Origin: a methanogenic archaeon ISO4-H5 | Lineage (GTDB): Archaea > Thermoplasmatota > Thermoplasmata > Methanomassiliicoccales > Methanomethylophilaceae | Assembly (NCBI GenBank): GCA_001560915.1 | Contig: CP014214.1 | Location: forward strand, 1,860,001 to 1,924,000 | Direction of reading: 5' to 3' | Length of the DNA stretch: 64,000 nucleotides | Shown here: one piece after another, positions 21,519-34,642 of the stretch | Numbering within the stretch: the first letter of the stretch is position 1 | Layout of the letters: each line of letters starts with the position of its first letter | Notes under the pieces: model-generated | Database searches by the model: none | Told to the model about the DNA's origin: nothing | Seen by the model: the letters and a program-made list of their open reading frames with translations, nothing else | Position numbers and translations under genes: made by a program

Positions 21519-21637
21519 GTTACTCGGGTTCTTTGACGAATTGAGTGGGTCGGTGTAATTCGGTTTCTAATGTTCATTTTTCGGAGGGGAACACATTTTA
21601 GATTACTATTCTCACTTTCGGGCATCCCCCTGTGAAC

Positions 21638-21646
21638 TTTATATAC
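21638..21646 (+). promoter_or_regulatory. TATA box of tnpB copy 1
   Basis: TTTATATAC lies about 25 bases before ATG 21670. The preceding CCCCTGTGAAC is identical in copy 2, where the sequence further out is unrelated. A conserved core promoter inside the element and a leaderless mRNA are likely. Confidence 0.6.
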
Positions 21647-21669
21647 CTCGAAACAACGTATCTAAAACG

Positions 21670-22968
21670 ATGCCGTATCGTACCGTGAAGATCCAGCTCT
21701 TCCCTAAACCCGAACAGGAGAAGAAGCTCTTACTGACCCTGCATGCCTGCAGGGCCACCTACAACGATCTCAACGAGTACTGCAGGGACTTCACTAAAAG
21801 ATACGATGAATGGCGCGAGAGCATGGGCGTGAAGGAAGGTGAAGATGCTTCGCTTTACGAAACGGATACCAATCCTCTTCCGAGGTTCCCTTCGGAATTC
21901 GAACTCACCGCAAAAGCGGGAGAGTTCAGGGAGATCAACCTATGGAGACGGGATGCTTACGGTACTGCAGTCAGAGAAGTCGGCTGCAGGATATACAAAG
22001 CATATCAACGTTGGTTCGATTCCTTAATAGACAATCCTTCCGCAGGAAAACCCAGATTCAGGACTGACGGGAGATACGACTCGTTCACATATACAGAGTA
22101 CAATCAATATCGCCTGGATACCCAGGGATTGTTCAAGGGAAAGAAACCGCGCATGTTCCTCGGAGGCGTAGGCTGGGTCAGATCCTCTGACAATAACATC
22201 ATCAAGAGAGTCCCAGTAGATCGCATGAAACAGGCAGTGGTATCCAGGAAGAAGATGGGTAAGAGCAACAAATGGTACATCACGATCTTCTGCGAATGTC
22301 TCGAGATACCCGACAACCGTACCTGGTACATGGATGCGGAAACTCCCGATCCCGTAGGATTGGATCTCGGAGCAAGGAGAGTGGCAACACTGACCGACGG
22401 CACGGTGGTCGAGAACCACCGTACCATGAGGAAGAACGAGAAGAAGATGGCAAAGATACAGCGCAAGATCTCCAAGACCGAGGAGGGTTCGGAGGAACGC
22501 AGGAAGTATCTGGGTCATCTCAGGCATCTGCAGAAGAGGATCGACGACAGTAAGAATGACGTACTGCAGAAAGCAACCAGATCGATTGCTCAGAATCACA
22601 CGAAGATCTTCGTGGAGGATCTTTCAGTAAGAGATCTTATTGATTTACAGGATAACAAAGAATCAAGGAAACTGTTCCGCGATGCGAGTGCGGGGACATT
22701 CATGAGACTGCTCAGATACAAGGGGGAGGAAACCGGGTCTGAGATAGTTCCAGTGAATCCCGCCTACACGAGCAGGATCTGCACCAAATGCGGAAAACTG
22801 AACGATCCGTTCAGCGAAGAGACCTTCCGTTGCAGATTCTGCGGTTTCACCAAACACCGTGACGACAACGCATGCGTGAACGTACTTAGACGCGGGATGG
22901 GGTTCGACATCCTCGGCACGTCATCAATTGCCGGAATTACCAAGGCGGAAGCCGAAGTGCAGAATTGA
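21670..22968 (+). CDS. tnpB: RNA-guided nuclease TnpB (intact)
   Basis: TnpB is the ancestor of Cas12 and cuts DNA using a guide RNA from the element's right end. The 432-residue protein has the three RuvC acids: GLDLGARRVATL (D), FVEDLSV (E) and HRDDNACVNVLRRG (D). The zinc ribbon CTKCGK...CRFCGF lies between the last two. No frameshift is present, so it may be active. It has no tnpA neighbour, and its guide RNA should end at the right inverted repeat, where a hairpin is seen. Confidence 0.95.
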   Translation: MPYRTVKIQLFPKPEQEKKLLLTLHACRATYNDLNEYCRDFTKRYDEWRESMGVKEGEDASLYETDTNPLPRFPSEFELTAKAGEFREINLWRRDAYGTAVREVGCRIYKAYQRWFDSLIDNPSAGKPRFRTDGRYDSFTYTEYNQYRLDTQGLFKGKKPRMFLGGVGWVRSSDNNIIKRVPVDRMKQAVVSRKKMGKSNKWYITIFCECLEIPDNRTWYMDAETPDPVGLDLGARRVATLTDGTVVENHRTMRKNEKKMAKIQRKISKTEEGSEERRKYLGHLRHLQKRIDDSKNDVLQKATRSIAQNHTKIFVEDLSVRDLIDLQDNKESRKLFRDASAGTFMRLLRYKGEETGSEIVPVNPAYTSRICTKCGKLNDPFSEETFRCRFCGFTKHRDDNACVNVLRRGMGFDILGTSSIAGITKAEAEVQN

Positions 22969-23010
22969 CAAATTGAGGGGAATTCCACCCACTCAATTCG
23001 TCAAAGAACC
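22965..23010 (+). ncRNA. Right-end hairpin overlapping the tnpB stop (possible guide-RNA scaffold)
   Basis: TTGAC-A-AATTGAG (22965-22977) pairs with CTCAATT-C-GTCAA (22992-23004), 12 of 13 positions, and the right half is the terminal inverted repeat itself. In known TnpB systems the guide-RNA scaffold spans the 3' end of tnpB to the element boundary, so this hairpin is in the expected place. The identity as RNA is an inference. Confidence 0.4.
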
Positions 23011-23011
23011 G

Positions 23012-23605
23012 TTACTCGATTCCTTTCTTCTTCTTAACAAAGAACGAAAGAACAATGCTCACCGCAATCACGACCAGGATCATCACGATGGTGATGATCT
23101 GGGACTCCTCGGACTGGAAGTAATTGTAGAAGAAGTTGCTGAGCATCATGATGAACCCGAACTTCACGACACATCCCAAGACGATGTAGAACGCGGATTT
23201 GGGAACGCTCCAGTTGAGGATGGCGATGAACGCCCCGGCGAACGGCAGCATGGGGGCCACACGGTTGAGGAGCAGGAGCTTCTCGTCACTGACCACCAGG
23301 AACTGGGTATACTTGTCCAGGGCCGATTGGATCTTCTTCGGGATCTTGTGACTGTACTTCTTGACGACCAGGTACAGCGAGAATATACCTATCTGTTCGG
23401 CGATGATGGCTGCGATCAGAAGTTCTACCCCGAAAAGCAGAGGATGGCCGTAGTTTGCTCCGCCGATGAAAGCCAGGACGAAGAACAGTTCCGGCAGGGT
23501 CGGGATGAGCAGGGCATCCAGCAGAAATATGAGGAAGATACACAGGACGAGACCCCATTCGCCGTTGGCACCGAATAAGTCATAGATCGCCTGGCCTAGG
23601 TTCAT
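23012..23605 (-). CDS. DedA/SNARE-associated-type membrane protein
   Basis: This 197-residue protein has about five hydrophobic segments, with a conserved-looking central block (VVKKYSHKIPKKIQSALDKYTQF, then LLLLNRVAPMLPFAGAFIAI) like the DedA/VTT family, which handles lipids or proton-linked transport. The R-x-A-P-x-x-P-F-x-G pattern is the best support. The last codons and stop overlap the right target duplication of the tnpB element, so the gene remains intact. Confidence 0.75.
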   Translation of the reverse strand: MNLGQAIYDLFGANGEWGLVLCIFLIFLLDALLIPTLPELFFVLAFIGGANYGHPLLFGVELLIAAIIAEQIGIFSLYLVVKKYSHKIPKKIQSALDKYTQFLVVSDEKLLLLNRVAPMLPFAGAFIAILNWSVPKSAFYIVLGCVVKFGFIMMLSNFFYNYFQSEESQIITIVMILVVIAVSIVLSFFVKKKKGIE

Positions 23606-30164: not shown

Positions 30165-31063
30165 CCTACCTTTCTTTTACGGCCTTTCGGTCACTTGATT
30201 CTATAACGAAGTGTGTGGAAATCGAGTGGTTGATTGAGTTGTCTTTTGGTCAATCAGATTTCAGTTTCGGTCACTTTCGGTACTTTCGGTGACCTCCCCC
30301 TGTGAACTTTATATACTTCTAAACAACGTATATCAAACAATGCCGTATCGTACCGTGAAGATCCAGCTCTTCCCTAAACCCGAACAGGAGAAGAGGATGT
30401 TACTGACCCTGCACGCCTGCAGGGCCACCTACAACGATCTCAACGAGTACTGCAGGGACTTCACTAAAAGATACGATGAATGGCGCGAGAGTATGGGCGT
30501 TGAGGAAGGTGAAGATGCATCACTGTACGAAACGGATACCAACCCCCGTCCGAGATTCCCGTCGGAGTTCGAATTGACCGCATTGGCAGGCGAGTTCAGG
30601 GAGATCAATCTCTGGAGGAGGGAGGCATACAGCGCAGCTGTGTGGGATGTCGGACGCAGGATACACAGGGCATACCAGCGTTGGTTCGATTCTCTGGTCG
30701 ATGATTCTTCCGCAGGAAAACCCAGATTCAGAACTGACGGGAGATACGACTCATTCACATATACAGAGTACAATCAATATCGCCTGGATACCCAGGGATT
30801 GTTCACGGGAAAGAAACCGCGCATGTTCCTCGGAGGCGTAGGCTGGGTCAGATCCTCTGACAACGGGATCGTCAAAAGAGTTCCCACTGATTGCATGAAA
30901 CAGGCTGTGGTATCCAGGAAAAAGATGGGAAAATCCAACAAATGGTATATCACGATCTTCTGCGAATGTCTCGAGATACCTGATAACCGTACCTGGTACA
31001 TGGATGCGGAAACTCCCGATCCCGTAGGACTGGATCTCGGAGCAAGGAGAGTGGCAACACTCA

Positions 31064-33006
31064 ATCGAGTAGGGCGACTGGGGTCATGCCCCAGTCTGCC
31101 CTCTCACACCACCGTGCGTACCGTTCGGTACACGGCGGTTCAAACACCTTTCCTTTACCTTTTCCACGTTGTCGAGAAGATAGTACATTCCCCTTTCCTT
31201 CAGGTATTTCAGCGTCAGCGCGTTCTTTATCGGAGTATAATCGGATGCTCTCCAGTATGAACTGTTGTAGCTGACCTTGTAGATGTTGGTCTTGCATGGT
31301 TCTGGCAAATATCCCGGAACAGGAGACTACCATCCTGGGGCAAGGGCCTTCAGGTTCTTGACCCTGTTCTTAGGAGTTTTCCACTGCTTGAAGATGTACT
31401 GCCTGATTCTCCTGCGTATCCAGGCGTCGAGCTTTCCCGTCCTATCTTTCCCCAGTCCGACAGCGAAATATCCCAACCATCCGCGTTCGTAGGTCTTCAG
31501 CTCTCCCAGTATCTGTTCGAGTCTCCTACCGCGGTTACGCTTGGTTATCTCCCTGATTCTCTTCCTGAATCTCTCCAGGCTCGAAAAGTGAACGGTTATA
31601 CCCACCTCCCTGGATCGATAGAATCTGAATCCCAGGAACTTGACCGTATCGGCTCTGCCGACAACGGTCTTCTCCTGGTTCACTTTCAGCCTGAGTTTCC
31701 CTTCCAGGAAGCGGGTCACGGATTCCCTCACGCGTTCCCCAGAACGCTGACTCCTGACGAAAATCATACAGTCGTCAGCGTATCTGCAGAACCTCAGGCC
31801 TCTGCTTTCCAGGAGCTTATCGAACTTATCGAGATAGATGTTCGATAGGAGCGGGGATAGGGGTCCGCCCTGGGGCGACCCCTCCCTGGTCTCCCTGACG
31901 ATTCCGTCAGGCATGACCACTCCGCTCCTGAGAAAGCTCTTTATGAGCCTCAGCAGGGATTTGTCCGCAATCCTTTCCCTCAGGATATTCATCAGGATAT
32001 CCTGGTTCAGGGTGTCGAAGAATTTCTCCAGGTCTAAATCCACAACGGTACCGTATCCTTCCTCGAAGTACGCTTTCGCCTGAAGTACCGCATCCTGTGC
32101 GCTCCTTCCAGGACGGAATCCGTAGCTCGATTCCGAGAAGGTCGGTTCATAGATCGGAACCAATACCTGTGCGATCGCCTGCTGAAGCACGCGGTCGAAT
32201 ACCGACGGAATCCCGAGATTCCTCACACCGCCGTTGGGTTTGGGAATCTCCTTCCTCCGTACGGGCAGAGGTTTGTAAGTGCCGTTCCTGATTTTGTCAA
32301 TCAGGACGGTACGGTTCTTCTCGAACCATTCGGGCACCTGTTCGACGGTCATTCCGTCGGAACCGGGTGCTCCATGGTTGGCAACGACCTGTCTGAACGC
32401 ATCTGCGAGGTTCTTCTCGGAGATGACGACTTCAATCAGGCCGTCGTAAAGTGTCTCCTTTCCGTCAGGTTCAGGGAGTGATATGCTGTCCGCTCCAATC
32501 GTTGCTTCGGGTTCCGCCCTATCTCCCGATTGGTAGCTTTCCGATGTTTTCTGTTTTCTCTGCATATCCTCGCTTCTCCTGCTGAAGACTTGGTGTTCGT
32601 TCGGTGCTTCCCCAGAACCCTTATCAGTAAGCATTCGTTGGGTACTATCACCTCGGCTGACTCCTCATCGGTTCGGCACGTCCCTCACGGGATGTGTTGC
32701 TCCCCCTTTTGTCTCGGTTGGAGCGTACCGATGAGGCCTCCCCAGGTAAGAACAGAATCTTTCACCGCATGTAACTGGCACATTTACTGGAACGGTTCCG
32801 TACAGTCTTGGATTTCGTTGCTTTTGGCCAACTCATCCACCAGATCCAGCCTACTATGTGCTTTCTGTCCGTCAGTTCGCGGTTTTGCCTCCTCCTTCCT
32901 TCACTCATCATCCTCGCGGATGGTGGCTTGGACTTGGCTAACAGTTCCGACTATCAAGCCTGTTCGGGACTTTCACCCTATAGAATTCTGCCCATGCTGG
33001 GCGCAC
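31064..33006 (-). mobile_element. Group II intron with RT/maturase, antisense inside tnpB copy 2
   Basis: The intron is read on the minus strand. It begins at 33006 with GTGCGCCCAGCATGGGC followed by GGGTGAAAGTCC, classic 5'-end sequences. Near the 3' end lie domain V (about 31141-31108, arms GTACC/GGTAC around GAAC) and domain VI (about 31102-31071, arms GACTGGGG/CCCCAGTC). It ends in CTACTCGAT with the presumed branch A seven bases from the end. The boundaries are fixed because removing 31064-33006 restores the tnpB frame with the same length as copy 1. The RNA-only part without a gene is about 32635-33006. Confidence 0.93.
31327..32634 (-). CDS. Group II intron reverse transcriptase/maturase
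   Basis: The protein helps the intron splice and copies it into new sites. Up to 435 residues long, it has NHGAPGSDGMTVEQV at the start of the RT domain, GIPSVFDRVLQQAI, YGFRPGRSAQDAV, REGSPQGGPLSPLLSN and the catalytic RYADDCMIF. A maturase X domain follows (FKQWKTPKNRVKNL). There is no HNH endonuclease domain, so mobility would rely on replication forks or single-stranded targets. The N-terminal ~60 residues are unusual, and the real start could be an internal ATG such as 32565. It ends with TAG, rare in this window. Confidence 0.93.
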   Translation of the reverse strand: MLTDKGSGEAPNEHQVFSRRSEDMQRKQKTSESYQSGDRAEPEATIGADSISLPEPDGKETLYDGLIEVVISEKNLADAFRQVVANHGAPGSDGMTVEQVPEWFEKNRTVLIDKIRNGTYKPLPVRRKEIPKPNGGVRNLGIPSVFDRVLQQAIAQVLVPIYEPTFSESSYGFRPGRSAQDAVLQAKAYFEEGYGTVVDLDLEKFFDTLNQDILMNILRERIADKSLLRLIKSFLRSGVVMPDGIVRETREGSPQGGPLSPLLSNIYLDKFDKLLESRGLRFCRYADDCMIFVRSQRSGERVRESVTRFLEGKLRLKVNQEKTVVGRADTVKFLGFRFYRSREVGITVHFSSLERFRKRIREITKRNRGRRLEQILGELKTYERGWLGYFAVGLGKDRTGKLDAWIRRRIRQYIFKQWKTPKNRVKNLKALAPGW

Positions 33007-33628
33007 CAGACGGCACGGTGGTCGAGAACCACCGTACCATGAGGAAGAACGAGAAGAAGATGGCGAAGATACAGCGCAAGATCTCCAAGACCGAAGAGGG
33101 TTCGGAGGAGCGCAGGAAGTATCTGGGTCATCTCAGGCATCTGCAGAAGAGGATCAACGACAGCAAGAATGACTTACTGCAGAAAGCAACCAGATCGATT
33201 GTTCAGAATCGCACGAAGATCTTCGTGGAGGATCTTTCTGTAAAGAAACTGATTGAGTTACAGGACAACAAAGAAACAAGAAAACTGTTCCGCGATGCGA
33301 GCGCGGGGACGTTCATGAGACTGCTCAGATACAAGGGGGAGGAAACCGGGTCTGAGATAGTCGCAGTGAATCCCGCCTACACGAGCAGGATCTGCACCAA
33401 ATGCGGAAAGCTGAACGGACCGTTCAGCGAAGAGACCTTCCGTTGCAGATTCTGCGGTTTCACCATACACCGTGACGACAACGCATGCGAGAACGTACTT
33501 AGACGCGGGATGGGGTTCGACATCCTTGGCACGTCACCGATTGCCTGAATTACCGAGGCGGAAGCCGAAGTGCGAAAAAATGTGACGGGTGTGTGAATTC
33601 GTTTCCACACACTTCGTTATAGAACCGG

Positions 33629-34642
33629 TCACTTCAGTTTCTTCATGGCGTACGAGCCGTTGCGCTTGTACACAAGCGCCACATAAGTGCGTATGGCCAG
33701 CCAGTACAGCGAGGAGATGTGGATGTTCCACCAGCCCTCGAAGGAACCTTTCAGGTATTTCTCGTAGGATGCGCGGTTCCTCTCGCTCTTGGTGAACTCC
33801 ATGAAACCGCGGTAGGACATGTGGCCACTGGAACGGATCTTCATGATGGCGTTCTTGCGGAGGATGACAGGATCGGTGCAGATGTCATCCACTTCATCAT
33901 AAGATTTGATCTCCGACAGTCCGCGGGCGTCGAGATCCCCGCGGCAGATTGATCCGCGGGTCTGGCGGTATGCGTACAGAGGGCGGTCGTAAAGGCAAAT
34001 CCTGGTACATGCGTCAACACAGCGATAGGTGTGGACCACATCCTCGGCGAAGGATTCCTCGAAAAGCAATCCGTTGTCCACCAGGAAACTGCGGCTGAAC
34101 ATCTTGCACCAGGAGGACACGGGGAAGACCTCGTCATTCCTGGCGATCAGTGCCTGATCCCTCTCCAGGACCTTGGTGCGGTAGGTGCGTCCGGGCTTCT
34201 CGCGGATTGTTCCGGTCTCATTTGTGTTGAGGAAATTGCAGCATACGAAATCCACCGGGTTCTCGATCATCAGACGGCGCATCTCCTCAATGAAATAGGG
34301 GCTGGGCGCATCGTCGACATCCAGGAACCAGATGTATTCCCCTGAGGAGGCTTCCAGACCGATGTTGCGGTTGCCTCCGAGCCTCTTCCCCTGATCCTGA
34401 GGTATCACCGTGGAGCGAGGGAGCTGTTCCGCGAGTTCGCGGACCTTCTCCAGGGAGCCGTCGTCGCTGCGGGTGTCGACCACGAAGATTGCTTCGAAAT
34501 CCTGATAGGTCTGAGCCTTGAGGAATGAAATGCAGCCTTCGATGTAACGGGCCCCGTTACGGATGGGTATCACCACTGAAACATCGAATTGTCCTGTTCC
34601 TGCATCTGTTCCAGAGTCTATGGAATCAGTCCTCACAGCCAT
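33629..34642 (-). CDS. GT2 family glycosyltransferase
   Basis: This 337-residue protein begins with the GT-A fold: VSVVIPIRNGARYIEGCISF, then IFVVDTRSDDGSLEKVRE and the metal-binding site YIWFLDVDDAPSPYF. The C-terminal part has no membrane helix and is rich in charged and aromatic residues. Such enzymes add sugars to surface glycans from nucleotide donors. Its stop codon lies in the target duplication of tnpB copy 2, but the coding sequence is intact. I use ATG 34642 as the start. Confidence 0.9.
   Translation of the reverse strand: MAVRTDSIDSGTDAGTGQFDVSVVIPIRNGARYIEGCISFLKAQTYQDFEAIFVVDTRSDDGSLEKVRELAEQLPRSTVIPQDQGKRLGGNRNIGLEASSGEYIWFLDVDDAPSPYFIEEMRRLMIENPVDFVCCNFLNTNETGTIREKPGRTYRTKVLERDQALIARNDEVFPVSSWCKMFSRSFLVDNGLLFEESFAEDVVHTYRCVDACTRICLYDRPLYAYRQTRGSICRGDLDARGLSEIKSYDEVDDICTDPVILRKNAIMKIRSSGHMSYRGFMEFTKSERNRASYEKYLKGSFEGWWNIHISSLYWLAIRTYVALVYKRNGSYAMKKLK

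Follow-up and report, generated by a model that had tools for sequence, protein, structure and literature searches.

A tnpB gene between ISL3-type ends in a methanogenic archaeon, with a right inverted repeat predicted to close its guide RNA

The nuclease gene tnpB usually resides in IS200/IS605 or IS607 elements. In the 64,000-nucleotide stretch of the rumen archaeon ISO4-H5 analysed here (contig CP014214.1, positions 1,860,001 to 1,924,000; hereafter the window), one tnpB lies within an element at positions 21519-23018 that is bounded by inverted repeats and a target-site duplication, which raises the questions of how this element moves and what its nuclease does there. Taken as a whole, the element is probably a transposase-less cassette with ends of the ISL3 family that carries tnpB together with its predicted guide RNA. 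Its parts are the following.

21519-21526, no strand: left target-site duplication GTTACTCG, from the direct repeat and the empty site in RUG13270
21527-21550, plus strand: left terminal inverted repeat of ISL3 type, from the 24/24 match with the right end and comparison with ISL3 ends
21670-22968, plus strand: tnpB, an intact RNA-guided nuclease gene of 432 amino acids (aa), from domains, motifs and the ratio of nonsynonymous to synonymous divergence (dN/dS)
22880-23010, plus strand: predicted scaffold of the guide RNA (omega/reRNA) with an approximate 5' boundary, extending from within the 3' part of tnpB to the right repeat, from fold z-score and third codon positions
22965-23004, plus strand: terminal hairpin of the predicted guide RNA, with its 3' arm in the right inverted repeat, from compensatory pairs in 17 cassettes
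22987-23010, minus strand: right terminal inverted repeat, also the 3' arm of the hairpin, from the 24/24 match and folding
23011-23018, no strand: right target-site duplication GTTACTCG, from the direct repeat
23011-23030, plus strand: predicted guide segment, if the scaffold stops at the element boundary as in IS200/IS605 (from PMC10711439)

The element and its insertion site

In agreement with an earlier note on this DNA, the repeats at 21527-21550 and 22987-23010 are reverse complements at 24 of 24 positions, and the 8-bp direct repeat GTTACTCG flanks them on both sides (21519-21526 and 23011-23018). A 16-nt end with up to three mismatches is expected 0.47 times per window by chance; as both ends are free of mismatches and adjoin an 8-bp repeat, a chance origin is negligible. 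The sole long plausible gene between the repeats is tnpB (21670-22968), and the claim that it is intact holds as well. Its 432-aa product carries the Pfam domains OrfB_IS605 and Cas12f1-like_TNB and scores 203.6 bits against the NCBIfam model guided_TnpB (cut-off 100). The RuvC motifs GLDLG (from residue 230), VEDL (315) and RDDN (397) and a C4 zinc finger are whole, which places the protein in the TnpB family.

A GtrA-like gene has its stop codon at the very end of the left flank, and the stop codon of a convergent gene lies inside the right duplication. As the flanks carry both stop codons, the insertion lies at the junction of two genes and breaks neither. The empty-site allele that the note had proposed to look for is present in RUG13270 (L120), where the joined flanks align at 90% identity, the insertion is absent and a single, slightly diverged target copy is found (GGAATGA-TCACTCGATACC). 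Perfect repeats and duplication together with this empty site mean that the window copy was either inserted recently or lost in RUG13270.

A search for further elements with such ends, likewise proposed, yielded five more cassettes in the genome and relatives elsewhere. The ISO4-H5 genome, one contig of 1.94 Mb, holds six TnpB copies including that of the window (88-100% identity), five of them unbroken and one split; those of the five other cassettes, one of which also lies in the window, are 88-93% identical to the window TnpB. Five of the cassettes have GGTTCTATAACGAAGTGTGTGGAAAT-like ends, and those of the window copy are GGTTCTTTGACGAATTGAGTGGGT. Target repeats of 7 or 8 bp flank five of the six cassettes, with 8-bp duplications ATGAAGGT, CGTATTTG, GGTCACTT and GTTACTCG and a 7-bp one at L006. 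Cassette relatives are present in at least three genera of the archaeal family. A phylum-wide search found close TnpB relatives confined to the same genus, and a search for relatives gave two loci in genome contigs and none in viral contigs. TnpBs only 36-38% identical to the window protein lie between ISL3-like ends in two further genomes (G039 and G113), several with 7-8-bp duplications, and a distant TnpB cassette in G080 has the duplication GAATATAG.

For all pairs among eight tnpB copies, dN/dS was 0.10-0.18 at synonymous divergences (dS) of 0.22-0.55. TnpB is under purifying selection, and the protein has therefore stayed functional for as long as the family has existed.

These data bear on whether the repeats belong to the element at all. 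An IS200/IS605-type element that had entered, or landed beside, a pre-existing inverted repeat or hairpin of the host would keep tnpB in its usual home (IS200/IS605 or IS607) and would make the repeats host sequence. However, the same ends recur in six cassettes at separate places, five of them with 8-bp or 7-bp repeats, and the empty site in RUG13270 lacks inverted repeats, so that this explanation was rejected and has next to no chance of being right. IS200/IS605 and IS607 elements have no such inverted repeats and no duplication, whereas the window element has both.

ISL3-type ends and the source of movement

The ends of the window element follow the pattern of autonomous ISL3 elements of the order, which end in sequences such as GGTTCTCTTTCATTTTGAGTGG and are flanked by 8-bp duplications, the latter seen for instance in L060, L063 and L089. 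An ISL3 element with an 8-bp duplication has also been described elsewhere (PMC9782665), and a duplication of this length is found at the window copy and most sister cassettes. No ISL3 DDE transposase gene lies inside the element, which has just tnpB between its ends; it is therefore a cassette and not an autonomous ISL3 member.

In another genus of the same family, an autonomous ISL3 element (G056:C69:13917-15272) has GGTTCTCTAACGAAGTGTGTGG at both ends, the duplication CTAACCAT and a transposase assigned to ISL3 by NCBIfam (246 bits, cut-off 180). Its end matches those of the sister cassettes at 21 of 22 positions and the window variant at 18 of 22. Cassette L040 (RUG10898) combines a left end of one type with a right end of the other. 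Its 8-bp duplication, TAGCGCGG, is perfect, an indication that both end types can be used by a single transposase. The proposal of the earlier note, that this tnpB travels as cargo in an element mobilised by a DDE transposase from elsewhere, is thus supported by ISL3-pattern ends on six cassettes with mostly 8-bp duplications. Judging from these sequences, an ISL3 transposase of this sort would act in trans, recognising both repeats and excising and inserting the cassette.

A pair of identical ISL3 elements resident in the genome was considered as the autonomous partner and rejected, its ends agreeing with those of the cassettes mainly in the first bases and the GTGG part. Within the stretch examined per locus, none of the ISL3 loci contained tnpB. 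A lone ISL3-like end, GGTTCTTTAACACTTTGAGTGG, lies at L038 2828-2849, about 575 bp past an ISL3 element; no partner end was identified.

The right end and the predicted guide RNA

The last 56 nt of 17 cassettes were folded individually, as separate minimum-energy folds. All 17 right ends form a hairpin with its 3' arm in the right inverted repeat. Standard pairs differ among the cassettes at positions 7, 8, 9, 12, 13, 14, 15 and 18 from the right end, several of them changed on both sides, with compensatory pairs at position 18 (A-T, T-A, G-C), position 15 (G-C, T-A) and position 12 (G-C, A-T). This hairpin did not form in the left ends of the same cassettes, nor at either end of six autonomous ISL3 elements. 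In a comparison with 200 shuffles, the terminal 131 nt of the window copy, which run to its right end, folded better than every one (z -3.05). Across eight copies, third-position differences average 0.061 in the last 47 tnpB codons versus 0.241 elsewhere, a roughly fourfold reduction for which gene conversion is another possible cause. The restriction of the hairpin to the right end, the fold z-score and the third-position constraint fit a guide RNA that runs from within tnpB to the end of the right repeat.

Our reading is that the right inverted repeat doubles as the end of this predicted TnpB guide RNA. In the SfAV Fanzor, a precedent, repeats are predicted to form part of the guide-RNA scaffold (PMC10711439). 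By analogy with the way IS200/IS605 scaffolds end, the guide would be placed from 23011 onward (PMC10711439). A transcript across the 3' end of tnpB would then fold into the TnpB scaffold, the last arm of its terminal hairpin being the right repeat, and would continue past this repeat into the flank, the source of the guide. Guide-loaded TnpB would cut cassette-free copies of the site, and repair from a cassette-bearing copy would restore the cassette. Since the 8-bp target that ISL3 duplicates is variable, the duplication would form the start of the guide, and a recognition motif would be needed just to the left of the duplication; as the transposase does not fix such a motif, cutting is expected at some insertion sites only. 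Homing or retention is, by analogy, the most likely role of TnpB.

Several observations weigh against this reading of the cassette. One of the six, L005, has no duplication, and for the end variant of the window copy the best autonomous partner matches at 18 of 22 positions. The search for a transposase gene with the same repeats, which the earlier note had called for, succeeded in another genus with nearly the same ends and failed in the cassette-bearing genome itself, where no transposase is bounded by such ends. In the left flanks of nine insertion sites, the information content of the six positions before the duplication was 2.69 bits, below the null 95% point (2.71) and not significant; the signal there is suggestive at most. 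The further suggestion of the earlier note, that the nuclease would have to promote retention or homing in another way than in IS605, was neither borne out nor contradicted by this result. The hairpin counts rest on related sequences and single folds with no tree-based test, the fold energy of two G039 copies is no better than that of shuffles, and an Rfam search of the right end matched no family.

The right-end hairpin could serve an ISL3-mobilised passenger in some capacity other than a guide RNA, either for the transposon itself or in the expression of tnpB; it might, for instance, stop transcription, stabilise an RNA or block read-through from outside. Hairpins close to transposon ends have such roles in known elements, and the failure to find a motif next to the insertion sites would fit. 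However, the hairpin occurs only at the right end, on the 3' side of tnpB; autonomous ISL3 ends lack it and no T-run comes after it, while the adjoining last tnpB codons are constrained at third positions, as expected for an RNA extending upstream. As the arrangement also agrees with the known position of TnpB scaffolds, we consider a non-guide hairpin unlikely.

A stranded, immobile cassette, whose TnpB is retained because it serves the host, for instance by cutting plasmids or viruses, and not because it maintains the transposon, appears rather unlikely. The genome has no matching transposase, and the copies are old by their dS, yet their frames are open save for the intron-split one and their dN/dS is low. 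On the other hand, the window copy has perfect repeats and a perfect duplication, its site is empty in a close relative, and many copies at different sites in three genera are a better fit to spread than to a single domesticated locus.

Known systems and further TnpB groups

The cassette with ISL3-type ends and predicted guide RNA resembles several known systems in part. Fanzor-only non-autonomous transposons bounded by inverted repeats and flanked by target duplications, such as SfAV Fanzor1 and Fanzor2* of Chloropicon and molluscs (PMC10711439, PMC3627910), likewise carry a lone TnpB-family gene in a cut-and-paste-type element, with an inverted repeat predicted to lie in the guide-RNA scaffold. 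They are, however, found in eukaryotes or viruses and are members of other transposon families, whereas here an archaeal TnpB lies between ISL3 ends with a variable 8-bp duplication; with a variable target, the scaffold cannot include the duplication as a constant part. With tnpB-only IS200/IS605 elements (IS1341-like) the cassette shares the TnpB protein family, a transposase in trans and a right-end guide RNA (both predicted here), but these have no such inverted repeats or duplication, both of which are present here and of ISL3 type. With the ISL3 family it shares the ends and the 8-bp duplication, and an autonomous member with nearly the sister-cassette ends occurs in the same archaeal family; unlike ISL3 members, it has tnpB in place of the transposase gene and a right end reshaped into a hairpin. 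The MIC231 cassette has a different passenger and IS231 ends. Mobile insertion cassettes of the MIC231 type (Chen et al. 1999, cited in PMC6542083) consist of IS ends around a passenger gene with the transposase absent. Both have a passenger between IS ends and no transposase, but here the passenger is an RNA-guided nuclease whose predicted RNA appears to use the IS end.

A literature search turned up no account of a TnpB from a prokaryote within a DDE-type cassette, or of TnpB with ISL3 and terminal inverted repeats, and papers that name TnpB and ISL3 together appeared unrelated; most subscription journals were outside the search, which leaves novelty uncertain. The arrangement is known for eukaryotic and viral Fanzors, and the prokaryotic case and the right repeat shared with a predicted guide RNA appear to be new. 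The prevailing view is that TnpB relies on transposases whose insertions fall beside a fixed motif, by which TnpB recognises the empty site. A TnpB on a transposon with variable 8-bp targets breaks this link and makes what TnpB needs from a transposase testable. An inverted repeat that is both transposase site and RNA scaffold would be under a sharp, testable constraint, and the cassettes offer a prokaryotic system for studying how RNA-guided nucleases move between transposon families, a step proposed for the origin of Fanzors.

Two further TnpB groups with inverted ends are offered as leads. In the same genome, the ends of L018-L021 are of the CTTAAGATGAYGCAACATTTAGCACTAG type, and three of the sites show 5-bp repeats (TTGAT, ATAAG, TTTAC). 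A resident IS1634-like element of 2034 bp is present in three copies with ends CCTAAGATGACGCAACAAGTAGCACTAG and 5-6-bp duplications; its score against the IS1634 model, 57.6, is below the curated cut-off of 100. The ends of the TnpB group at L018-L021 and L165-L167, with their short duplications, resemble those of this element. The second group, L011-L016, has CTTGAGTWYGACA-type inverted ends with 6-bp repeats at two sites, and at L136 a CTTGAGTWYGACA-type end lies close to a weakly IS1634-like transposase open reading frame (ORF). Most right ends of both groups fold with the repeat in the 3' arm. We lean slightly towards a repeated uptake of TnpB by different DDE-type insertion sequences (ISL3, IS1634-like and probably a third), in which the right repeat each time became the last arm of the guide-RNA hairpin and transposons with low target selectivity gained an RNA-guided homing nuclease. 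If true, the capture of Fanzors by DNA transposons of eukaryotes would have a prokaryotic counterpart in this archaeal family. Captures were not counted from the TnpB tree, whose root is arbitrary and in which the row L017 (731 aa, an over-long frame) is unreliable.

The second cassette of the window consists of the following parts.

30189-30196, no strand: left target-site duplication GGTCACTT
30197-30222, plus strand: left inverted repeat GATTCTATAACGAAGTGTGTGGAAAT
30340-33548, plus strand: tnpB, interrupted at about 31064-33008 by a group II intron in antisense orientation
33601-33626, minus strand: right inverted repeat and 3' arm of the hairpin
33627-33634, no strand: right target-site duplication GGTCACTT

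The intron at 31064-33008 (Rfam RF02001 and RF01998, minus strand) contains a reverse-transcriptase ORF and lies antisense in this tnpB. The window also holds, at 2802-2876, a short leftover of a TnpB gene from the same group, covering residues 348-372 at 76% identity. Upstream of L005, L013 and L014, a promoter-like stretch, GTCACTTTCGGTAYTTTCGGYGACCTCCCCCT, is common to ISL3-ended cassettes and a distant TnpB group, which suggests an exchange of modules. Finally, the TnpB frames L103, L104, L105, L111 and L113, from three genomes of one genus, contain in-frame TAG codons, which these archaea may read as pyrrolysine.
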